This document shows positions 3,345-52,286 of a DNA stretch of 54,555 nt, piece after piece. The DNA comes from a virus. The translations under genes and the position numbers were made by a program. A model generated the notes under the pieces. That model worked only from the letters and a program-made list of their open reading frames with translations. It ran no database searches and was not told the DNA's origin. The DNA lies in the IMG/VR virus record IMGVR_UViG_3300037153_000401, positions 1-54,555 of that record. One strand, written 5' to 3'. Within the stretch, counting starts at the first letter, position 1; each line of letters starts with the position of its first letter.

Positions 3345-3438
3345 TTGGGGAAACACCCCAAACACCCCAAGATCGATCTTGGGGAAACACCCCAAACACC
3401 CCAAGATCGATCTTGGGGAAACACCCCAAACACCCCAA
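3345..3438. repeat. 34-bp tandem repeat (2.8 copies) with 20-bp perfect palindromes
   Basis: Two identical 34-bp units (3345-3378 and 3379-3412) and a 26-bp partial third (3413-3438) lie between two small genes. Each junction forms the perfect palindrome CCCCAAGATCGATCTTGGGG (3365-3384 and 3399-3418), and each unit also contains TTGGGG and CCCCAA arms that can pair. The period is not a multiple of three, arguing against a coding constraint. This resembles iterons of a replication or partition site, or an operator array. Confidence 0.75.
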
Positions 3439-8116: not shown

Positions 8117-8971
8117 ATGAACCATTCGCAAGACGAAAACAAAGGATTTAGCGACGTGGATTTCTGGATCGCCGAATGGCTCAAGCCGACCGGCAAGCGC
8201 CGCAGCGAACACACCGCCCTCGCCTACCGGGCCGACGTGAAAGCGTTCCTGAAGCGCGCGGGAAAGCCATTCGACCAGGTCGAAGTCGCCGACCTGCAGG
8301 ACTACCAGTCTTACCTGGCCGACGAGTACGGCGCCGAGAAGACGCGCGCGCGGAAGATGGCCAGCGTCTGCAGTTTCTATCGCTTCTTGAACAATCGCGA
8401 GGTGACGGAGCTGAACCTGGCGCGGATTGAACGAACAAAGATAGATCGCTCAATCAATCACGATGAACTGCTCACGGTCGAACAGATCCGCGCCATCATC
8501 GCCGCTACGGCGGCTAATTCCCTGCACCACGCGCTACTCAAATTCCTCTACCTGACTGGCGTGCGGATCAGCGAGGCGCTAGGGCTTCGCTGGCGCGACC
8601 TACGCCAACTCGACGACGCCGGCGAGGCTCATATTCTCGGCAAGGGCGGAAAGAGACGTATGGTCTTTCTGCCAGCCGACCTATGGCGAGACCTGATGGC
8701 GCTGCGCGGCGCCGCTGATGATAAGGATCACCCCTTCCCTTTCTCGTCACAGAACGCTTGGAAGGTCGTAAAGAAGGCCGGCATCGCCGCTGGCGTCGCA
8801 GACGTTCACCCTCACCAGTTCAGGCACGCTTATGTGTCTCACCTGCTGGCAGAGAACGCGCCTCTGGCCGACGTGAGTGAGGCTGTAGGACACGCCAGCA
8901 TTGCAACCACAGGGCTCTACGCGCACCCGACGAAAGGGCGTGATTTGGCCTTAAAACTGAGCGCAGAATGA
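8117..8971 (+). CDS. tyrosine recombinase / integrase
   Basis: A 284-residue XerC/D-like protein. The N-terminal SAM-like core-binding domain covers residues about 10-105. The catalytic domain carries the full set: R150 (LTGVRISEAL), a beta-hairpin Lys near 176-179 (GKGGKR), H233-x2-R236-H237 (HPHQFRH), H259 (VGHAS) and nucleophile Y268 (LYAHP). It would cut and rejoin DNA through a 3'-phosphotyrosine, for prophage integration or dimer resolution. The gene closes the early plus-strand string, followed by the toxin-antitoxin pair. No excisionase was recognised. Confidence 0.9.
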   Translation: MNHSQDENKGFSDVDFWIAEWLKPTGKRRSEHTALAYRADVKAFLKRAGKPFDQVEVADLQDYQSYLADEYGAEKTRARKMASVCSFYRFLNNREVTELNLARIERTKIDRSINHDELLTVEQIRAIIAATAANSLHHALLKFLYLTGVRISEALGLRWRDLRQLDDAGEAHILGKGGKRRMVFLPADLWRDLMALRGAADDKDHPFPFSSQNAWKVVKKAGIAAGVADVHPHQFRHAYVSHLLAENAPLADVSEAVGHASIATTGLYAHPTKGRDLALKLSAE

Positions 8972-9043: not shown

Positions 9044-9130
9044 CTAGCCGCGTCAGAATGATGATCGCGAAGTAAGGAAGTGGGGAATCATGACTCGCAT
9101 AATTTTTTTCAGACTGAAGGAGCCGGGGAA

Positions 9131-9433
9131 ATGCGGATTATTTCCTACCCTAAATTACGCGAATTTTACGAGAAGCATCCTGATAGCGAGACGGCCCTCG
9201 AAGGCTGGTATACGGCTGTCAAGAACGCCGATTGGAAGACGCCCGCCGACGTGCGTAAAACATTCAGGTCAGCGGACTTCTACAAGAATTGCACAGTATT
9301 CGACATCGGCGGCAATAAATATCGACTAATCGCGTGGGTCAACTATCGGACTCACGCCGTTTACATCAGAGCGATTCTGACCCATAACGACTATGACAAA
9401 GGCAAATGGAAAGCTGATTGCGGTTCCGGGTGA
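9131..9433 (+). CDS. higB: HigB-family toxin (mRNA interferase)
   Basis: A 100-residue protein with the HigB-family pattern: MRIISYPKLREF, GWYTAVKNADW, FDIGGNKYRLIAWVNY and the end segment VYIRAILTHNDYDKGKW. HigB toxins are RelE-like ribosome-dependent endoribonucleases that cut translated mRNA. The start at ATG 9131 follows GGGGAA; an upstream in-frame ATG (9080) is less likely. The order toxin first, antitoxin second is typical of higBA. It overlaps the antitoxin start by 41 bases. It could stabilise the prophage or act in exclusion of other phages. Confidence 0.85.
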   Translation: MRIISYPKLREFYEKHPDSETALEGWYTAVKNADWKTPADVRKTFRSADFYKNCTVFDIGGNKYRLIAWVNYRTHAVYIRAILTHNDYDKGKWKADCGSG

Positions 9434-9821
9434 TCCGAAGAAATACGGCTCCCTGCTCGCCCAAACGCTTCCGGCCGTCATCCAGACCGAGGAGCAGAAT
9501 GAACAGTACCTGGCGATCGTCGAGAAACTGATGCGCAAGGGCGAGGAGAATCTGTCGCCTGAAGAAAATACGCTGCTCGACCTGCTCGTGCATCTGATCG
9601 AAGATTTCGAGAAGAGATACTATAAACCACGTAAGGCCACGCCGCTTGAAGTGCTACACGAGTTGATGGCCGCGAACGACCTCAAACAGTCCGACCTGGT
9701 CCCGATCTTCGGCTCCAAGGGGATCACTTCGGAAGTAGTCAACGGCAAGCGCGGAATCAGTAAGGCGAACGCGAAAGCGCTGGGCGAACTCTTCAGTATC
9801 TCGCCCGCCGCCTTTATCTAG
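9393..9821 (+). CDS. higA: HigA-family antitoxin with helix-turn-helix
   Basis: A 142-residue partner of the toxin. Residues 1-75 form a helical N-terminal domain rich in Glu (EEQNEQYLAIVEKLM). Residues 85-140 hold a Cro/C1-type helix-turn-helix (LKQSDLVPIFGSKGITSEVVNGKRGISKANAKALGELF in overview, with core DLVPIFGSKGITSEV). It should neutralise the toxin and bind the palindrome at 9027-9043. ATG 9393 lies inside the toxin gene, giving translational coupling. Confidence 0.85.
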   Translation: MTKANGKLIAVPGDPKKYGSLLAQTLPAVIQTEEQNEQYLAIVEKLMRKGEENLSPEENTLLDLLVHLIEDFEKRYYKPRKATPLEVLHELMAANDLKQSDLVPIFGSKGITSEVVNGKRGISKANAKALGELFSISPAAFI

Positions 9822-19141: not shown

Positions 19142-19585
19142 TCAGTAACTCGAAATGATTGCGCCCGGAGATTCGAAAAGAGTCTCCACGGTCTCGCGGT
19201 TATTGTGTCGCTCGCACAGGATCCAGTAATGAGAATCCAAATCGGCGAGGAATTGCGTGAGGTCGCCGCACGCTTCGCACTTATGCGCCGAGTTCGGGTC
19301 TTTCAGATTGAGTTTCAAGCGATGATCGAGCAGGTAGCGCTTGTAACACTCTGCCGCTTCTTCCGCCGTCGCGTGGCCGTCGGAGTGATATTTGTCCTTG
19401 TGCGGTAGGAGTTTCTCCTCCCATTCACGCTTCCATTGATCATTGTGAGCCTCGTCGTAGAGATCGAACGGCTTCCACTCGCGCCAGCCGGCGCAGTAAC
19501 CGACCGGCCGGATGTCGTCATCGTTGCCCTTGGTGTAATCCCAGCGATGATCCTTTTCGCGCTGTCTTGCCTGGTAGTAATTCAT
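19142..19585 (-). CDS. hydrophilic phage protein with zinc-finger-like motif, 147 aa
   Basis: Starts at ATG 19585 after GGAGAAAAC and overlaps the previous gene by 4 bases. It is very rich in Trp, Lys, Asp and His. The C-terminal third has CEACGDLTQF and later CERHNN, a C-x2-C with C/H partner that may bind zinc. A longer frame up to 19984 is a shadow of the membrane gene. Function unknown; it sits between tail fibre and a membrane enzyme. Confidence 0.55.
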   Translation of the reverse strand: MNYYQARQREKDHRWDYTKGNDDDIRPVGYCAGWREWKPFDLYDEAHNDQWKREWEEKLLPHKDKYHSDGHATAEEAAECYKRYLLDHRLKLNLKDPNSAHKCEACGDLTQFLADLDSHYWILCERHNNRETVETLFESPGAIISSY

Positions 19586-32143: not shown

Positions 32144-32205
32144 CAAAAGAAAAAGGCCGCCAACCGGCGACCGATCCGAATGGACCAATCACCGAATTGG
32201 CGGCC
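32144..32205 (-). terminator. terminator upstream of the scaffold gene
   Basis: On the minus strand GGCCGCCAA (32197-32205 read backwards) pairs with TTGGCGGCC (32155-32163), a 9-bp stem with a long internal loop, followed by TTTTTCTTTT (32145-32154). It would limit read-through into the scaffold-capsid block, so a promoter is probably present near 32140. Confidence 0.6.
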
Positions 32206-32289
32206 TGTGCTTAGGTAGTGTTCCGCGCCGAACAAACGCCCAACGCGGCTAATGACTAAACAAAAACCTTTATGAAATTGTGAGTGCGG

Positions 32290-32457: not shown

Positions 32458-32689
32458 TCTTTTTCCCTAGATCGAATTTCCGCTCAATCCCTTTAACGAT
32501 CAGGAGAAGTCCGTCGCGCACGAATGTGGCAATATCGCGGGCGTCATCCCATGAGAAAGACTTCGGCGCGGGCTTGCTAATATGCTCTTTCACACTACCT
32601 ATGCGGCCCATTGATCCTTCAGGCGGGGAAACCGGAGCCCGAAAGGCATAGGGAATGCGATAGCCTTTCTGTTGCGGTTCGTCGCTCAT
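32450..32689 (-). CDS. small protein with capsid-like GYRIPY motif, 79 aa
   Basis: A 79-residue protein with QQKGYRIPYAFRAPV at residues 6-20. The major capsid protein carries KGYRIPYYSRRPGG at about residues 47-60. The remaining part has a helix (DDARDIATFVRDGLLLIV) and a basic end. It could bind or mimic part of the capsid during assembly. The ATGA overlap with the next gene shows coupling. Confidence 0.5.
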   Translation of the reverse strand: MSDEPQQKGYRIPYAFRAPVSPPEGSMGRIGSVKEHISKPAPKSFSWDDARDIATFVRDGLLLIVKGIERKFDLGKKNG

Positions 32690-32838
32690 CCCCTCAGCGC
32701 CCCCGCCGCCTTGGCCTTAAAATATTCAACTTGCGCGATCCTCTTCCTGGCCTGCTTCTTGGAGAGATTCGGCTTGCTCAGGTTCTTGGCACCGCTTTCG
32801 GATTTGACTTGGTAGCCTTTGCCGGTTTTAACGATCAT
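32686..32838 (-). CDS. small basic phage protein, 50 aa
   Basis: ATG 32838 starts a 50-residue protein, MIVKTGKGYQVKSESGAKN followed by LSKPNLSKKQARKRIAQVE, ending in an Ala-rich stretch. This pattern of a short Lys/Gly beta-hairpin then a Lys/Arg helix (KKQAxKRxxQVEYFK) is a common phage small-protein family. The three copies of ATGTTGCAT (32890-32942) lie just upstream, so this gene may be regulated from there. Confidence 0.65.
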   Translation of the reverse strand: MIVKTGKGYQVKSESGAKNLSKPNLSKKQARKRIAQVEYFKAKAAGALRG

Positions 32839-32889
32839 ACTTTAGCGATAACCGAGCAGAATTTAATGTAAAGATTCTGCACTTGCCGA

Positions 32890-32942
32890 ATGTTGCATTA
32901 ACAACGATTCGATGTTGCATTATCATGCGGCGGATGTTGCAT
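32890..32942. repeat. three ATGTTGCAT repeats at an exact 22-bp period
   Basis: ATGTTGCAT occurs at 32890-32898, 32912-32920 and 32934-32942, in the same orientation and spaced exactly 22 bases, or two helical turns, so a bound protein would sit on one face. The repeats lie in a divergent intergenic region between the 50-aa gene (minus) and the DUF559 gene (plus). Likely an operator array or iterons; the binding protein is unknown. Confidence 0.75.
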
Positions 32943-32990
32943 CGTCGCCGCTAAGCACTCTAGTCGCAACTAGTTACAAGCAGAAAAGTA

Positions 32991-33018
32991 TTGACAAAGA
33001 AAGTACCATCCCTAGAAT
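32991..33018 (+). promoter_or_regulatory. sigma70-like promoter for the DUF559 gene
   Basis: TTGACA (32991-32996), a 16-base spacer and TAGAAT (33013-33018) make a good promoter. Its spacer is the left arm of a 13-bp inverted repeat. It transcribes against the late genes. Confidence 0.7.
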
Positions 33019-33063
33019 AGCGCCGTCTTTTCCAGTTACGACAATCTAAGAGGGATGGTACTT
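33001..33063 (+). promoter_or_regulatory. 13-bp perfect inverted repeat around the promoter and start of the DUF559 gene
   Basis: AAGTACCATCCCT (33001-33013) lies between the -35 and -10 boxes. Its perfect complement AGGGATGGTACTT (33051-33063) covers the ribosome binding site and ends at the ATG. The left arm is upstream of the transcript, so the pair is more likely two half-sites of a repressor looping the promoter than an RNA hairpin. Confidence 0.75.
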
Positions 33064-33456
33064 ATGACAAACTCAAATGCCAAGCAATTACCACTGTTCA
33101 ACGACGCGCGCAACTTCACCCAACCGCACGAATCATTTATCGAGGCGCGCCTCGCGCACGCCCTAAATGTAAGAGAAATCCCGCACAAACGAGAGCATCC
33201 AATTGGACGCTACAGAGCCGATTTTGCTTTCCTTGAACACAGCCTAATCGTCGAGGTCGACGGCTACGAGTTCCACCATACCAAGAACCAGCGAGAGCAC
33301 GATGCGCAGCGAGATCGAATATTTATGCTATTAGGCTGGCGTGTCATCAGATTTACCGGATCGGAAATCCACCGAGATATTGAGCGTTGCGTGGCAGTGA
33401 TTACGTTACTATTAAAGACTCTGGCCAATTCTCATCAGGAGGCGAAGGCAGCTTAA
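33064..33456 (+). CDS. DUF559-family PD-(D/E)XK endonuclease, Vsr-like
   Basis: A 130-residue protein on the opposite strand to all late genes. Residues 25-115 match DUF559: ESFIEARLAHAL, then YRADFAFLEHSLIVEVDGYE (D then E-V-D, a PD-(D/E)XK core) and HDAQRDRIFMLLGWRVIRF. The fold is shared with Vsr mismatch endonucleases. It could be a selfish or defensive nuclease. Its 3' end overlaps the converging HTH gene by 56 bases. It has its own promoter and operator-like repeats and looks like a moron. Confidence 0.75.
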   Translation: MTNSNAKQLPLFNDARNFTQPHESFIEARLAHALNVREIPHKREHPIGRYRADFAFLEHSLIVEVDGYEFHHTKNQREHDAQRDRIFMLLGWRVIRFTGSEIHRDIERCVAVITLLLKTLANSHQEAKAA

Positions 33457-33943
33457 TAATCCCATGCTCACGGTTGAGCAATTGTAACCGCTCAGCTTCG
33501 GTAATTATTTCCTTCAAACAGGCATCTGCCATCTCACGACCGTAGGTGCGAGCAAGAGATTTGGGCAAAAGAGGCTCTTTACCATCTAAGAGAAGACGGG
33601 CGTCTAGCCTAATCGCGGCTTTATAGAACCAATCAAAGAAAGCGCCTTTTAGGTATTTTCCCTCAGCTGTATGCGCGCCTCTTTTGCGGTGGTGGCATAT
33701 CTCATGCATCTTCTCCGCTACTAGGACAGCCCATAGTTGCGTCCGACTATACATAATGCGGTTTACACCGAAAGGCCCCTTCTCACAGTTAATCCGTCCA
33801 TCCTTACGCCAACGCCATAAAGTGGAACGGGTAATGCCAAGAATTACCGCGGCCTCTTTCTCGTCATACATGGACGCATATGGCACAAGCGCTAAACGCT
33901 CTTGGGCATATCGCTCGATTATTTCCTCTACAGGATGGGTCAT
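33401..33943 (-). CDS. helix-turn-helix DNA-binding protein, 180 aa
   Basis: The 180-residue protein has a MerR/HTH_17-like motif near residues 28-50 (EKEAAVILGITRSTLWRWRK), followed by GRINCEKGPFG, then long helical regions with MHEICHHRKRGAHTAEG. The C-terminal end overlaps the DUF559 gene tail to tail. It overlaps the portal start by 4 bases. It could be a packaging or regulatory factor; its place just ahead of the portal in the order of minus transcription's neighbour set does not tell. Perhaps binds the repeats at 32890-32942. Confidence 0.65.
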   Translation of the reverse strand: MTHPVEEIIERYAQERLALVPYASMYDEKEAAVILGITRSTLWRWRKDGRINCEKGPFGVNRIMYSRTQLWAVLVAEKMHEICHHRKRGAHTAEGKYLKGAFFDWFYKAAIRLDARLLLDGKEPLLPKSLARTYGREMADACLKEIITEAERLQLLNREHGIIKLPSPPDENWPESLIVT

Positions 33944-36531
33944 TGAGCTGCGTCTCCTTCGGCTTTTAGCGCCCCTCGCCCATTCGGCGGTGGTCCTTGC
34001 GGCATCGGCGGCGCGCCCGCCATCTGCACCTGAGCAGCCTGCATCGCAATCGCCCCTTCTTGCATCCCGCCGAGTTGAAAATGTGTCTGAATTAGGAATT
34101 CAACGCCCTGCCGTAATGGCAACGGCGCGTCCTGTCCTTCGTCGGTGTCGAGCCAGGATTGGAACCACAGCGCTTTCCCCTTGTGATCCCTTTCCATCAT
34201 ACTGATTGGCGGCTGAATGGCCTGCAGCATCACCATCGGATCGGCCATCCCCATTTGTACCACCTGCTTCATCTGCTCGAGACGCTTACGACAGATTTGC
34301 GCGGTCACGTCGAACGTCACACCGCCAAGGAATCCTTGCACCTTGTAAAGCCGCTCAAGCCCGGCGACCAGCTCCGGCGCCTGTTGTTTCGCAATCAGAT
34401 AGTTAGCCATCCCGCCGAACAGCCCGATGAAAAAGGCATTCGCGTTATCGCGCTTCGTGACGCTGTTCTCCGGCAGTTCACTTTCCTTCGCGATCTCGTA
34501 ACGCAGGTCGGCCTCAAGATTCGCGGACGAAAGCCAGATGCCAGGCTGCTGCGAATGCTCGCCGCCGAGGGAGAAATAACGCTTGATCGGAAAATAAGTA
34601 CGGTAATTCTTTACGACATTCTCGGCGATACTCATCCGGCCGTCACCTTTGACCATCACGACGGGCAGAATCAGGGAGTTCGCGTTGGCGTCGGCAATCA
34701 TCGCTCCACGCGCCGTGTCGTTGCGCTGAGCCATGAGTCCGCCATTCGTGAAGTCCGTCGCGTGCGAAGTCGTAGCAAACGCCTGCGTCAAGAATTGCTG
34801 TACGTACTGAGTGAATCCGGCCGGCACGGAGCCTGGCGGCAATGACATGACGGCGTCGCGAAGGCTCTTCAGCTCAGGCAGTTTCGAGATGTCTACCGGG
34901 ATATTGGCGCGCGGATGGTTGATATAGCCCATATCATCGGAATCAACCATGTCCTTGTAATAAAAGACCGCCGGCGTCGCCATCGCGTCCATGTATTCGA
35001 GTTGTTGCGAGTCGAGCTTGTTGATGCGCTTTTGGACTTCGACCATATCCTGACCGCCGCGTCCGGCTCCGGACATCGGCCGCATATGCCAAACGGTTGA
35101 GGTGATGTGGTCGCAGTGTTTCTCGGCATAAACACCGAGAACTAGCGACATCCCATTGAGCCCCACCGCGACCAACCCATCGGGGAATAGGTCCGTCAGC
35201 TTTCCGCCTCGCGGCAATGGCGCGCCCTGTCCTTGCGCCGATGCCACGGTTTGCTCATCGCCCTTCAGATCAATATCAGCGTAATCGTCAGGCGAGAGCC
35301 ACATCTCGCAGAGGTTGACCTTGTCTTGACTCAAGAAGCTACGGCGGCGACGTCCGCCGGCGTGGCCGTCCGTCGCCTGACCGATGTAGGCCAAATTTTG
35401 CGAGACGTCGAGGCCAAGGTCCTGGTCGCCCGCATTGCCGGGAATCTGGACGCGCCCGAGCAGCCGGCGAATAGCGCCGACGGGAATCTTCTGTTGATGC
35501 AGAAACCAAGTAGACTTCTCGGCGCGCGCATTCAGATCCCAACGGCAAGCCGGGAACAGTAATTGGTCCAGGCAGAGGTCGCCGAGCTGCACCTGTTCCT
35601 GACCGACGACGGTCGGCATTGTCTCTGTCGCTGGCGGCTCAACGAGCGCGTATTCGCTCCCACAGCGCGGGCAAGCGGTTGCCGACCGTGGTCCGGCTGG
35701 CGTATCAACTGCGCCAGTGAACTGATCCGCAGTACCCGCGTATCCACAATCACCGCAGTACCCAGAGCCTTCGCCGAGCGTGACATCCCGATTCTCGACA
35801 ATCTCCCGTAAGCCGATCACGCCTTGAATCCCTGGGTCGTAGCGCAGGCGATTCAGCGACGTCCCGAACGTCAGAATCTGCAACGCTTCCTGCAAGTGAG
35901 GCCACGGCTTGAAGAATTCATTTTCGTAATGGTCGACAATAATCCCGCCAGCCTTCGACGCGGCTTCGCTCTGATCGGTGTCGCGCCCGGGCCTGACGAC
36001 CACATCGGGATTGCTTTGAACATACTTGACAATGCAGTTCGTCACGTAGAACTGCATCATATTCAGCGCCCGCTTGGCGCTGTTATCTTCCTGCGGCGGC
36101 TTGATAACAAGCCATCCGCCTGTCCACGGGTTGCGCTCAAGGATCTGATCGCCCTGAAGGAAGCGCGCGACCAGATCACCGGCGTTGATCATTTCCCGCC
36201 AGACCAGCTTTTCAATATTCCAGAAGTGCTTGAACCTCTCCTTTAATGCATCGCAAAAATAATGCGAGCCGCCCGGCTGCTCTCTGAGATTGAGCAACGG
36301 TTGCAACGGCGCATAATTTACGCCCGGCCGAACTGGAATTATTTGCGAGTAACCACCCTCCTTCTTCTCTGGTGGTTGAACGTCAGCGCTATCTGGTATC
36401 AGTGATGGTAAATTTGCCCTAGATACCGCAGCGCTCGGATACGACATGGCGGACTGCGCATGCTGATAATTAGGCTGCCTGATCAAAGCCCCCATGTCTC
36501 CCGCCTGCGGTTGTAGCACGTTTCTGGCCAT
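33940..36531 (-). CDS. portal protein, 863 aa, with an inserted zinc ribbon
   Basis: An 863-residue protein upstream of scaffold and capsid and downstream of terminase. The first 240 residues contain the typical portal stem lead-in (WTGGWLVIKPPQE, IIVDHYENEFFKPWPHL). A C-x2-C-x24-C-x2-C zinc ribbon (C259, C262, C287, C290) is inserted before the main body. Later regions include PMSGAGRGGQDMVEVQKRIN and a long helical C-terminal barrel-like part with Gln/Met-rich end. Portals form a dodecameric gate for DNA packaging. The zinc ribbon is uncommon. Confidence 0.8.
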   Translation of the reverse strand: MARNVLQPQAGDMGALIRQPNYQHAQSAMSYPSAAVSRANLPSLIPDSADVQPPEKKEGGYSQIIPVRPGVNYAPLQPLLNLREQPGGSHYFCDALKERFKHFWNIEKLVWREMINAGDLVARFLQGDQILERNPWTGGWLVIKPPQEDNSAKRALNMMQFYVTNCIVKYVQSNPDVVVRPGRDTDQSEAASKAGGIIVDHYENEFFKPWPHLQEALQILTFGTSLNRLRYDPGIQGVIGLREIVENRDVTLGEGSGYCGDCGYAGTADQFTGAVDTPAGPRSATACPRCGSEYALVEPPATETMPTVVGQEQVQLGDLCLDQLLFPACRWDLNARAEKSTWFLHQQKIPVGAIRRLLGRVQIPGNAGDQDLGLDVSQNLAYIGQATDGHAGGRRRRSFLSQDKVNLCEMWLSPDDYADIDLKGDEQTVASAQGQGAPLPRGGKLTDLFPDGLVAVGLNGMSLVLGVYAEKHCDHITSTVWHMRPMSGAGRGGQDMVEVQKRINKLDSQQLEYMDAMATPAVFYYKDMVDSDDMGYINHPRANIPVDISKLPELKSLRDAVMSLPPGSVPAGFTQYVQQFLTQAFATTSHATDFTNGGLMAQRNDTARGAMIADANANSLILPVVMVKGDGRMSIAENVVKNYRTYFPIKRYFSLGGEHSQQPGIWLSSANLEADLRYEIAKESELPENSVTKRDNANAFFIGLFGGMANYLIAKQQAPELVAGLERLYKVQGFLGGVTFDVTAQICRKRLEQMKQVVQMGMADPMVMLQAIQPPISMMERDHKGKALWFQSWLDTDEGQDAPLPLRQGVEFLIQTHFQLGGMQEGAIAMQAAQVQMAGAPPMPQGPPPNGRGALKAEGDAAQ

Positions 36532-44517: not shown

Positions 44518-44593
44518 AGTTGTTACTGCTTTGCTTCTTCTCCTTTAATCGCTTTCGCCGGTAGCCTGCGAAACTTTACCTGACTCCCTTGTC

Positions 44594-45991
44594 GTGCCGA
44601 GAGCCTTTCCCTCGACCAACCCAAATCACCTGTATTTTCAAAACGATAATTTCTACTCCTGTTGTGCCGAGAGCCTTTCCCTCGACCAACCCAAATCACG
44701 ATTCGGTTTGAATTCGAGCGCGAGCTCCTGCTCCTCAAGTGCCGAGAGCCTTTCCCTCGACCAACCCAAATCACGTCATTCACCGTAGAGCGACGTGTGA
44801 TCACTTCAGTGCCGAGAGCCTTTCCCTCGACCAACCCAAATCACCCGCACCACGTCAGCAATTGCAGGTAGTACCCACAAGGTGCCGAGAGCCTTTCCCT
44901 CGACCAACCCAAATCACCGGGGACACGGTGACACTGGTGACACTTCAGCCAAGTGCCGAGAGCCTTTCCCTCGACCAACCCAAATCACCTGAAGCGTGTT
45001 GGACAGAGTGGCGGCTGCGCGGCTTGTGCCGAGAGCCTTTCCCTCGACCAACCCAAATCACTTTTGCTGTTAATCTTTTCCGGGTCTACTCCAGTCTGTG
45101 CCGAGAGCCTTTCCCTCGACCAACCCAAATCACTCGGTGATTTCGATGATCCTATTTCCGAGTTCAACGTGCCGAGAGCCTTTCCCTCGACCAACCCAAA
45201 TCACCACGCCGAGTGAGATCAATTTGTTTCCAAGCCACTTGTGCCGAGAGCCTTTCCCTCGACCAACCCAAATCACTCATGGCTTCGTCCCCAATCAATT
45301 CCGCCGACAATGTGCCGAGAGCCTTTCCCTCGACCAACCCAAATCACGCAGAGCGAGGCGGGCAATCCAATACTGATCGAAGTGCCGAGAGCCTTTCCCT
45401 CGACCAACCCAAATCACTTTCATGAATTTCATCAACGGGATGGCTGAAACTACGTGCCGAGAGCCTTTCCCTCGACCAACCCAAATCACATCGAGTCCCA
45501 CAGTCGCCGCATAGCGTGCCGCGAGTGCCGAGAGCCTTTCCCTCGACCAACCCAAATCACCGTGACGCGCGGCTGATCAGGTTTGAACGTGTAGCGACGT
45601 GCCGAGAGCCTTTCCCTCGACCAACCCAAATCACCGGCTGGGAATTCCAGCGCGGCCGGCTGCTCGCTGTGCCGAGAGCCTTTCCCTCGACCAACCCAAA
45701 TCACCAGATAACTGTGGATTTGCTGGGTTGATTATTGTAAGTGCCGAGAGCCTTTCCCTCGACCAACCCAAATCACTTCAGGCCACGCAGGAACTGCCGG
45801 CGGTTCAAGGACGTGCCGAGAGCCTTTCCCTCGACCAACCCAAATCACAACTGTGGATTTGCTGGGTTGATTATTATAGTATCGTGCCGAGAGCCTTTCC
45901 CTCGACCAACCCAAATCACGGTGTTACCTTGGGATCGTCAGATACATTTCGGAATGTGCCGAGAGCCTTTCCCTCGACCAACCCAAATCAC
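44594..45991 (-). CRISPR. CRISPR array, 20 identical 36-bp repeats, 19 spacers
   Basis: Repeats start at 44594, 44664, 44739, 44809, 44882, 44953, 45026, 45098, 45169, 45241, 45312, 45382, 45454, 45525, 45599, 45669, 45741, 45813, 45884 and 45956; all 20 read identical. Spacers are 34-39 nt (mean about 35.7). On the minus strand the repeat starts GTGATTTGGGTT and ends CTCTCGGCAC; CGAG and CTCG arms form a hairpin 4 nt from its 3' end, typical of type V crRNA handles, so minus transcription is preferred. The array starts 5 bases after the effector stop. There is no AT-rich leader and no degenerate end repeat. Spacers 16 and 18 (45705-45740 and 45849-45883) share 27 nt. The 76 bases after the last repeat (44518-44593) hold no visible tracr anti-repeat. 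Confidence 0.99.
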
Positions 45992-45996
45992 TGCAA

Positions 45997-47727
45997 TTAC
46001 CCAACCTCAATCGCCATCTCACTTGCCGCCATAACTCGCACGTATCGCCGCAAATGATCAGGGATTTCGACCGGCGACGCGGAGATGCTTGCGCCGCCTT
46101 CTATCTCGCTGAGCAATAAACGACTTGTATTAACGTCGTTATCCTGTTTATGGCCGTTTTCGCACACGCGGAGGAGCTTGCGTCCCTTTTCGACCTTTCC
46201 GCCGCATTCAGAGCAGGTCTGCGTCGAATACGCCGCCTTGTGGTTCCGCAGCGCGCCTTTGTTTTTTGGATCAAGCTCCGGGTCGTGGCGAAACTTTTGC
46301 GCTGCCTGCTTGATTCGCTCCCGCAGATAATACTGCCCGACCAGCTGGCGATACTTCTGCGAGGGATCGCCCGCGCCTGCTTCCGCCATTTGCTTCAGCG
46401 ATAGGTCGCCTTCCCACGCCACGATATCAAAGCTGCGCATAATCCATGCCGCGACCTGCTTATAAACCTCTTCCTTCAACTGCGCGAATTCGAGTTCAAG
46501 CGCCCGCTTTTTGTGGTGAAGCCAGTCGATGATCAAGGCCAGTTTCCAAAGCAAACTTGCAGCTTCCAGGTCCGTCCCTTCCAACTTCTCGCGCAGGCGT
46601 TCAAGTCCGCCCTGACGCATCTTGGTAAAGCCCAGCATCGTTTGCCGCGCTTCCTCCGGCCACTGGTCTTTTTTGCGATCATAGATCGCCTTCAACGCTT
46701 GCTTGCAGTTTTCCACACAGTCCCCTGTTTGCTCGGACAGCAAAACCAATCGCCGAACGTCTTTCTTTTTGGGTTCAATGCATTTCTTATCTGCGCGACT
46801 ACTAAAGTCGAACGGCATGGCAATCTCGTAGGAATGGCCAGCATTGTCGGTGAGAACCCCCACTCTCACCCGATCACCCATTAGCCGCCATCCGCCCGAG
46901 TCGTAGCCCGCCACGCGGCCCGTCATCTCGCGTGGCAGATTAAGCGGGGGCATTTCAAGAGAAAATTGGATTTCGTATCTGTCTCGAAAGCCCCGCTCCG
47001 ACTGTCGCACCAATGTAACACGCTTAACTATCGCGTGCGGCGGCGGCAGTCTGTGTATGCTGACCAATAGCTTCAAGTGTCGCAGTTTTACATCGGCGCC
47101 CTGCGGCGTTTTCACTCGAAATTCAAGATTATGCTTAGCGCCCGGCGCCGCCTCCGGTAACCGATAAAGCGACACATTGCCGCCTTCGCCGTATAGATCA
47201 GCCCATGTCGTTTCTTGACCCGCCACCGCATTGAAATTAACCGGCAAATTCAAATTGAACTCACGATCGAGATATTTCGGCGACGGCATGCCCATTTCCC
47301 ATGAGGTATAGCCCTTGGCGGCCTTCGCCCGCTGGCGCCGCGCGGGCCATTCCTTCAGCGCCAACAGAAACCGATCCACCACGGCGTAATAACAATCGCT
47401 GGTTATTTGACCGCGATACTTCTGGCCGAACGCGCGCAGGAATTTTGTATCCTTGAATTGTTTTACTATCGCGTTTCGCGCATCTTGTTTAGCCTTTACG
47501 ACATCGTCGGGATCGCTACCGGCAATCCTGTGCGGCGCGACTTGGCGCTTTAATTCAAACGCCATGTCATTCCACAGCTGCCGTTGAAGCTCTTCGGTAG
47601 ACTTGATCCATGTCGGCATGTCGCCAACTACCTCGCACGCGAATGCCCATGCGCGAATCGGCCAATCGCGCAAGCGTTCGCGACGCGGCAGTTTCTGTTT
47701 CTTCTTTTCGGTGATCTGAATTTCCAT
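45997..47727 (-). CDS. compact type V CRISPR effector (Cas12-like, RuvC)
   Basis: ATG 47727 gives 576 residues; TTG 47733 is an alternative overlapping the upstream stop. The N-terminal half (1-265) is a helical/beta recognition region without recognisable motifs. The C-terminal half is a split RuvC nuclease: RuvC-I GYDSGGWRL (D276), bridge-like helices with W402-HHKKRALELEF, RuvC-II DIVAWEGDLSL (E439), a zinc finger CSECGG...CENGH (C505, C508, C522, H526, so CCCH) and RuvC-III KQDNDVNTSRLL (D529/D531). All acidic catalytic positions look present. The GxDxGWR-like element and length recall V-M (V-U1, Cas12m) effectors, but subtype is not proven. No cas1, cas2 or tracrRNA nearby; acts with crRNA from the adjoining array. 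Confidence 0.85.
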   Translation of the reverse strand: MEIQITEKKKQKLPRRERLRDWPIRAWAFACEVVGDMPTWIKSTEELQRQLWNDMAFELKRQVAPHRIAGSDPDDVVKAKQDARNAIVKQFKDTKFLRAFGQKYRGQITSDCYYAVVDRFLLALKEWPARRQRAKAAKGYTSWEMGMPSPKYLDREFNLNLPVNFNAVAGQETTWADLYGEGGNVSLYRLPEAAPGAKHNLEFRVKTPQGADVKLRHLKLLVSIHRLPPPHAIVKRVTLVRQSERGFRDRYEIQFSLEMPPLNLPREMTGRVAGYDSGGWRLMGDRVRVGVLTDNAGHSYEIAMPFDFSSRADKKCIEPKKKDVRRLVLLSEQTGDCVENCKQALKAIYDRKKDQWPEEARQTMLGFTKMRQGGLERLREKLEGTDLEAASLLWKLALIIDWLHHKKRALELEFAQLKEEVYKQVAAWIMRSFDIVAWEGDLSLKQMAEAGAGDPSQKYRQLVGQYYLRERIKQAAQKFRHDPELDPKNKGALRNHKAAYSTQTCSECGGKVEKGRKLLRVCENGHKQDNDVNTSRLLLSEIEGGASISASPVEIPDHLRRYVRVMAASEMAIEVG

Positions 47728-47729
47728 GT

Positions 47730-47987
47730 TCAATGTTCTCCTTTTTTATCCGCTTCTGTTTTCGGTCTGTAACTCGGATCGAAATCGGCGATGATGTACC
47801 GGCCCGTCTTTTCATCGAAATCAATCGCGCGCTGGTACGCGCCGTCAACCTCGATCAGCAGGGCATAACCTCGTTTCAACATATCCGAGATGATGCGTCT
47901 GGCGCGGATCGCTTCCGCCGCGTTGTCTTTGTCGAATGTGATTTCCACGTCTCCCTCGTAAACGTTAAGGATTGACAGCATTCCCAC
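47730..47987 (-). CDS. small conserved phage protein, 85 aa, coupled to the Cas gene
   Basis: GTG 47987 follows GGAGGG at 7 bases. The product is compact alpha/beta: MLSILNVYEGDVEITFDKDN, AAEAIRARRIISDMLKRGYA, LLIEVDGAYQRAIDFDEKTG, ending in DFDPSYRPKTEADKKGEH. It resembles small phage proteins of unknown role. Its stop (47730-47732) sits 2 bases upstream of the effector ATG, so it may drive effector translation by coupling. Whether it helps the CRISPR system is unknown. Confidence 0.65.
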   Translation of the reverse strand: MGMLSILNVYEGDVEITFDKDNAAEAIRARRIISDMLKRGYALLIEVDGAYQRAIDFDEKTGRYIIADFDPSYRPKTEADKKGEH

Positions 47988-50453: not shown

Positions 50454-52286
50454 TTACTCCGATGAAAGAATCGCTGAGCACAGCGCCTGTGCGAGGCCGA
50501 CGGCCACGGCATTGCCGATTTGTTTGACCTTCTGCTCGCGATTACCAACGAAGTGGTAGGTCTTCGGGAAGCCCATCGCCATCGCGAGTTCGTGCGGCTG
50601 GAGCATCCTGAAATGGACATCAAGAAGCGCGATCTCCTCGCCCGGCTTCAATTCGGGAATGACCAGACCGAACCGATCCTTTCCGGTCACGGTGTCGAGC
50701 GGGTCGTCTATAGATTGCGCCCCGGCCGTGCCGTTATATTTCACGAGATAGGGCTGCACGAGACCGTGTGCGCCGCCCTTAGCCGTCGTAATCGTGTTCA
50801 GCGGTTTATCGATGGACCTCACGTGGCCGCCGTGTTCCATCGCCACAAGGAACGGCTGAACCAATCCGAGATGATCGCGGGTCACCACCGTGTTGAGTGG
50901 TTCGTCCGTGCTGCGTGGCGCGATGTCTCGGCCGCCCGAATTGATAATGAAGGGTTGGACAAGGCCAAAGTGGTTCGACGTGACGAGCGTCGGAAGCGGC
51001 TCGTCAACGCTGGCGTTGCGCTGGTCGCCGTCTTTGCGACCCTCGTGGTTCCCGTTGTAGCGGACTAAAAACGGCTGCGCCAGACCAAAGTGTTGACCAT
51101 TTGCCGCCAGCGTCCGCAATGGCTCATCAAGAGATTGCGCATCTGCGTTATTGCGCAAGACGACCAGAAACGGCCGACAAAGCGCGTGATGCATTCCTTT
51201 CGTGGTTATAGTTGACAGTGGCGCATCAATCGAGCGGGCGTCCTGACCGTTGCGCAGCTCAACGATAAACGGCTGAGCGAGGCCGTAATGCTCATAGTTG
51301 GCCGTGATCGCCGGCAGAGGCTCGTCAACGGATTGCGCGTCGTGCCCGCCGTAATACTTCACCAAGAAGAGTTGAATCAGAGCGCCCGCGCCATGCGAAG
51401 TGACCGCGGGGAGAGGCTTATCAATTGAGTGGTTTCGCGGCTTCTGCCCTTCGCGCTCGCCAAAGTTCGGTACGATGAAGGGCAGCCCGCAAAACTTCTG
51501 AAGTCCCGCCCAGATTCTGGCCAACGTGTTGGGACTGAGCGGTCTTTTGCGTGTAAAAATTGACTCGCTCGGGATCTCCCAATCAATGATATCGCGCGCG
51601 GGTCTATGCGGCTGCAGCTTCGGCATCTCGAAGAGCGTGCGAGTTCCATTGCCGTTCGTCTTCGCTTTCGACGCCGGCGCGTGCGTTGGCTCGGGCCAGC
51701 AGATCGCCTTCCGGCCGCGTCGAGCCTGGATAAACAATCGCTCTCGTGATGTCGGATCGCCGAAGTCGGCGGCGTTCAGAATGCGGTCTTCGACCGTGTA
51801 GCCGAGCGCGCGCAGGGCGTTCAGAAAAGCGAAGTACGTTTCACCGCGGCGCTTCTTTAGCGGCCGGCCGTTGACGCCGAGCGGCCCCCAGGTCCGGAAC
51901 TCTTTCACGTTCTCGATCAGGACGTGGTCAACTGTGATCTGTGAGCACCATTCGACAATGCGCCAGGCGCTCGCCCGGGATTGATCGTTGATCGGTTTGC
52001 CGCCTCGGGCGATTGAATGATGCGTACATTCCGGGCTCGCGACCAGCAGGTTGAGCCTGCCGCCTGGAACGATCGTTCGCGGATCTACGGACTCAAGAAG
52101 CGCGCACACGTGATCGGCCTCCGGATGATTCGCCGTGTGTGTGCTGATCGCGATCTCCCAGTGATTGACCGCGATCAGTTTCAGGTGAATTCCCTGCCGC
52201 TCGCAGGCTTGCCGCAGGCCGCTACTGGTCCCACCGGCGCCGCAGAAGAGATCAGCCGCAATGATTTGTTTTGACTTTCTCACCAC
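50454..52286 (-). CDS. dcm: DNA (cytosine-5) methyltransferase with eight internal repeats, 610 aa
   Basis: GTG 52286. C5-MTase motifs in order: I DLFCGAGGTSSGL (12-24), IV SPECTHHSIARGG (84-96; Cys87 nucleophile in an S-P-E-C variant of PCQ), VI LIENVKEF (123-130), VIII RERLFIQARRGRK (181-193), X IGNAVAVGLAQAL (590-602). It puts a methyl on C5 of cytosine. Between VIII and X (about residues 286-543) there are eight copies of a 30-40 residue unit built on S-x-D-x-P-L-x-T-x-T and GLxQPFLV. No restriction enzyme is adjacent. Probably for anti-restriction or regulation. Confidence 0.9.
   Translation of the reverse strand: MVRKSKQIIAADLFCGAGGTSSGLRQACERQGIHLKLIAVNHWEIAISTHTANHPEADHVCALLESVDPRTIVPGGRLNLLVASPECTHHSIARGGKPINDQSRASAWRIVEWCSQITVDHVLIENVKEFRTWGPLGVNGRPLKKRRGETYFAFLNALRALGYTVEDRILNAADFGDPTSRERLFIQARRGRKAICWPEPTHAPASKAKTNGNGTRTLFEMPKLQPHRPARDIIDWEIPSESIFTRKRPLSPNTLARIWAGLQKFCGLPFIVPNFGEREGQKPRNHSIDKPLPAVTSHGAGALIQLFLVKYYGGHDAQSVDEPLPAITANYEHYGLAQPFIVELRNGQDARSIDAPLSTITTKGMHHALCRPFLVVLRNNADAQSLDEPLRTLAANGQHFGLAQPFLVRYNGNHEGRKDGDQRNASVDEPLPTLVTSNHFGLVQPFIINSGGRDIAPRSTDEPLNTVVTRDHLGLVQPFLVAMEHGGHVRSIDKPLNTITTAKGGAHGLVQPYLVKYNGTAGAQSIDDPLDTVTGKDRFGLVIPELKPGEEIALLDVHFRMLQPHELAMAMGFPKTYHFVGNREQKVKQIGNAVAVGLAQALCSAILSSE

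Follow-up and report, generated by a model that had tools for sequence, protein, structure and literature searches.

A promoter-containing hairpin may govern translation of a Vsr-like nuclease gene in the variable cargo slot of a phage

A DUF559 nuclease gene set into the structural operon of a phage is probably a self-contained cargo cassette, one in which translation depends on the point at which the message starts. The leader of this gene contains a 13-bp inverted repeat that spans a promoter-like site and the ribosome site, and that is better read, on the sequence, as a hairpin hiding the ribosome site with a promoter inside it. The window (the whole stretch of viral DNA analyzed, a record of 54,555 bases) has plus-strand genes up to about 9.8 kb, beyond which lies a structural operon almost wholly on the minus strand. 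Within that operon the nuclease gene is on the plus strand and both flanking genes are on the minus strand; the HTH gene is convergent with it and overlaps its last 56 bp. The leader is 225 bp long, and a 22-bp-period array, two promoter-like sites (P1 and P2), and the inverted repeat all fall inside it (Table 1).

Table 1. Features of the nuclease locus, with positions in the window
Feature	Position	Strand	Remarks
50-aa ORF	32686-32838	minus	ATG at 32838
Variable cargo slot, portal to 50-aa ORF	32839-33939	.	from comparison with L005 and L032
Array, three copies of ATGTTGCAT	32890-32898, 32912-32920, 32934-32942	+	exact 22-bp period
P1, TTAACA-17-TATCAT	32898-32926	+	10/12 sigma70-like, inferred promoter; expected start ~32933
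P2, TTGACA-16-TAGAAT	32991-32996 and 33013-33018	+	11/12 sigma70-like; expected start ~33025
Left hairpin arm, AAGTACCATCCCT	33001-33013	+	in P2 spacer; predicted not to be transcribed from P2
Shine-Dalgarno, GAGGG	33050-33054	+	9 nt before ATG 33064; read from sequence
Right hairpin arm, AGGGATGGTACTT	33051-33063	+	covers most of Shine-Dalgarno; abuts ATG
DUF559/Vsr-like endonuclease, 130 aa	33064-33456	+	profile, conserved residues, predicted structure
HTH_17 protein, 180 aa	33401-33943	minus	domain match
Portal gene	33940-36531	minus	

An earlier note on this DNA had singled out the opposite-strand position of the gene, three copies of ATGTTGCAT at an exact 22-bp period, and a 13-bp inverted repeat over the promoter spacer and ribosome site, and had taken them together as dense, dedicated regulation; all of these observations held up, with the array coordinates confirmed and its spacing non-random. 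A search for ATGTTGCAT elsewhere in the 54.6-kb phage, which the note had proposed, returned only the three leader copies (0.24 exact copies expected in the window). Three identical 9-mers at any fixed period of 15-35 bp occurred in none of 8 simulated windows, and the real window has one other such triple, in a tandem minisatellite at 3345. There, 34-bp repeats (3345-3438, 2.8 copies) with a 20-bp palindrome, CCCCAAGATCGATCTTGGGG, lie inside a predicted early gene. The two arms of the inverted repeat are 100% complementary over 13 bp and are separated by a loop of 37 nt. Perfect inverted repeats of at least 13 bp with loops of up to 60 number two in the window, compared with 0.07 expected, the second being at 3365-3418. 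Of the 50 gene starts compared, no other has so long a perfect repeat across the ribosome site as the nuclease gene (13 bp, against 7 bp for the next). A search for known RNA families matching the leader found none at E up to 1.

The promoter-like sites are similarly concentrated in the leader. P2 is the only site in the window, on either strand, to score at least 11/12 against the sigma70 consensus, which is assumed here and may not be that of the host; at a threshold of at least 10/12 on both strands there are one 11/12 and two 10/12 sites, and P1 and P2 are two of these three. Together with the long repeat at the ribosome site, this speaks for the dense control devoted to one gene that the note had proposed. 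The P2 hexamers flank the left arm, whose final base also opens the P2 -10 hexamer, so that a transcript from the predicted P2 start would lack the 5' arm. P1, itself a consensus match, would give transcripts holding both arms. P1 lies within array repeats 1-2: repeat 1 runs one base into its -35, repeat 2 abuts its -10, and repeat 3 begins at its expected transcript start. P1 and the array should not be counted as separate evidence, because the two P1 hexamers overlap in part with the 14-mer that recurs in the array.

Predicted folding separates the two kinds of transcript. The long RNA forms the 13-bp stem at -23 kcal/mol, a stability reached by 0 of 200 shuffles, and by computation the Shine-Dalgarno sequence (SD) of long transcripts sits in that stable stem. 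Opening the SD would cost 15.1 kcal/mol in a transcript from the P1 start, compared with 3.8 kcal/mol from the P2 start at 33025; for starts at or upstream of 33000 the cost is 12-15 kcal/mol. In 300 shuffles of the leader the cost averaged 5.3 and peaked at 12.4, always below that of the P1 start; the predicted P2 transcript has no structure near the SD and is less structured than its own shuffles. One other start, that of the scaffold gene at 32192, outranked the nuclease in opening energy; this start has probably been called too far upstream, given an ATG in the same frame deeper inside the gene, and the hairpin there seems to be intergenic. Between a 79-aa ORF and the scaffold gene, at about 32155-32206, lies a strong inverted repeat, GGCCGCCAA...TTGGCGGCC.

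The locus itself is variable among relatives. The contig L005 has a portal 81% identical to that of this phage, and its slot holds an unrelated 174-aa gene, with homology resuming exactly at the ATG of the 50-aa ORF (BLAST); in L032, the scaffold region comes next after the portal. Neither the nuclease nor the HTH gene was found anywhere in these two contigs, both of which may be fragments, and the control region, array included, is absent from them as well. The absence from two related phages marks the nuclease, the HTH gene, and the control region as variable cargo. There is no clean empty site of the kind looked for with a homing endonuclease gene, as L005 carries other cargo and the HTH gene is also missing in both relatives. 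Searches of viral contigs, genome contigs, phages, and plasmids found no diverged homologs of the leader; a single further copy turned up, matching this one at 99.95% identity across 10.4 kb and showing no difference in the leader. The phage also carries a CRISPR-like array at 44580-47733 (20 repeats of the 36-nt GTGCCGAGAGCCTTTCCCTCGACCAACCCAAATCAC, with spacers of 34-39 nt), adjoined by a 578-aa Cas12-like protein (PADLOC Cas12u1, 1e-15); together, these are a compact type V system carried by the phage.

The product of the cargo gene matches the DUF559 domain (E 1e-16), and its structure is predicted with a pLDDT of 85. In structure comparison, the catalytic domain of I-Bth0305I ranks first (Foldseek E 6e-5, TM 0.81 by target), followed by a Neisseria endonuclease-like protein and Vsr; the profile match to I-Bth0305I is weak (E 0.039). 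DUF559 proteins have been described as Vsr-like, and VsrA contains DUF559 (PMC12907096). Since twelve viral sequences all keep the same six residues (E27, D53, E64, D66, H71, and D80), the nuclease looks catalytically intact. A C5 cytosine methyltransferase is encoded at 50454-52286 of the same phage, and a methylase/Vsr pairing is conceivable. An inverted repeat of at least 7 bp over a plausible start was found at 0 of 16 further viral DUF559 loci, a set that includes several near-duplicates; the L041 and L045 loci have a 9-bp repeat at an implausible GTG start. This absence indicates that the hairpin belongs to the cassette described here and not to the DUF559 family.

These features would fit together as a switch set by the site of initiation. 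P2 sits inside the stem-coding sequence, and messages begun there (~33025) would lack the left arm, because the arm lies between the P2 -35 and -10 and hence upstream of the start; their SD would be free, and the nuclease would be made. Messages from P1, or from antisense late-operon read-through, would carry both 13-nt arms and would fold into the hairpin, hiding the SD and yielding little nuclease in the cell. Any need to guard against upstream messages would rest on P1 or antisense transcription, since no plus-strand gene lies close upstream of the leader. The array is a plausible candidate for a protein-binding site, possibly for the neighboring HTH protein. Its copies would lie on roughly one face of the DNA, given about two helical turns per repeat, and its position could let a bound protein control P1. 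Overlapping P1 as it does, the array would most likely bind a regulator, with the HTH protein as first candidate: it is a natural one, as its gene belongs to the same module and both gene and array are missing from the relatives. The HTH_17 match is excisionase-like, a domain that gives no binding site. A more ambitious proposal has a mobile Vsr-like cassette, from outside the T4 group, bring along everything needed for its own timing: two tandem host-type promoters would give a silenced and a translatable message, and the array and HTH protein would choose between them; we regard this as rather unlikely in its full form.

The earlier note had read the inverted repeat as a repressor operator. 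In one version of such a reading, the arms would form a DNA operator pair at which the HTH protein, the nuclease itself, or a lysogenic repressor blocks P2, perhaps by looping. Both arms do sit where a repressor would block transcription, the HTH gene belongs to the same module, and the homing endonuclease I-TevI represses itself by binding an operator over its own promoter (PMC2988022). However, single arms are not clear palindromes, no further copies of the arm 13-mer were found within 2 mismatches, and two DNA operators could work as a pair without being inverted or perfectly complementary. The asymmetric arms, 50 bp apart center to center, instead match the layout known from T4, and we consider an operator pair unlikely, and not the best reading of the repeat.

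Two further alternatives concern the array or the whole leader. The array could serve replication or partition as an iteron-type site, with no link to the nuclease: ATGTTGCAT arrays with periods of 21-23 bp occur in unrelated contigs (L009:3506-3581, L025:1235-1306, and L063:4480-4532), where they adjoin winged-HTH or replication-type genes. These contigs were selected by searching for the 9-mer, however, and are therefore a lead only; matches to ATGTTGCAT elsewhere include several real arrays and also coding, minisatellite, or low-complexity repeats. In the phage, moreover, the sequence between the repeats is not conserved, the array overlaps P1, and it is missing from relatives. DnaA boxes are not enriched and GC skew does not turn at 32.9 kb; the combination of DnaA boxes, a skew change, and an adjacent initiator that would mark a replication origin was not found, and that reading of the array was rejected. 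An iteron-type role is quite improbable. It is also conceivable that the gene is moron-like prophage cargo, expressed constitutively from P2, with the inverted repeat and array lacking any function. Such cargo would be expected to resemble this gene in its strong promoter of its own, its opposite orientation, and its absence from relatives, and the phage may be temperate, as it has a tyrosine integrase (8117-8971). But chance alone would seldom produce either the inverted repeat or the array, and placement over both promoter and SD makes coincidence less likely still, so that this explanation is very improbable. Adjoining the integrase, a HigB-like toxin gene followed by a 142-aa ORF (9080-9821) forms a possible toxin-antitoxin pair.

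If the hairpin switch operates as proposed, hiding the ribosome site of a nuclease gene unless its own promoter is used would seem to be a more general and portable safeguard than T4 alone suggests; it would have originated, or been spread, beyond the T4-like phages and together with another family of nucleases. This arrangement, with one arm in a promoter spacer and the other on the SD, is easily searchable, and might point to phage genes of unknown function that are toxic or mobile.

Precedent for such a switch comes from T4 and its relatives, where the design with a promoter inside the hairpin has been demonstrated by experiment for gene e and I-TevI (PMC2988022, PMC3014915). There, early I-TevI messages are silenced by a hairpin and late-promoter messages are translated, segB and Aeh1 mobE are described with the same type of arrangement (PMC2988022), and the hairpin of the lysozyme gene e has a 100-fold reducing effect (PMC3014915). 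In our computations, the T4 control genes e, segB, 49, regB, and denV all show the hairpin feature. In the early genes regB and denV (L071:16725-16800 and 19340-19420), the left arm lies in the spacer of a sigma70-type promoter and the right arm on the SD; the available portions of the same reviews do not name these two genes as hairpin-regulated. The T4 precedents therefore cover both the context, a nuclease gene (I-TevI and segB), and the exact promoter geometry (regB and denV).

The cassette described here resembles I-TevI, segB, and Aeh1 mobE in combining a nuclease gene, an SD in a stem, and a predicted promoter transcript without the 5' arm. The T4 cases have late promoters, encode GIY-YIG or HNH nucleases, and belong to T-even phages, whereas here the promoter is sigma70-like, the nuclease is Vsr-like, the phage is unrelated, the gene lies in opposite orientation, and a 22-bp array is added. 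With regB and denV it shares the position of both arms, the left one between the -35 and -10 of a sigma70-type promoter and the right one on the SD. In those two genes the perfect arms are 7-10 bp and the loops 23-27 nt, compared with 13 bp and 37 nt here; unlike the nuclease gene, neither is placed in an opposite-strand operon. The enzyme has a DUF559 domain, like VsrA-type proteins (Caulobacter CCNA_02930), and has a catalytic fold in common with I-Bth0305I, an EDxHD, Vsr-like phage homing endonuclease, but it is a single domain of 130 aa without the extended DNA-binding region of that protein. The switch layout itself is thus known from T4, and, as far as sequence comparison can indicate, the present case extends it to another type of nuclease and to a phage not related to T4.
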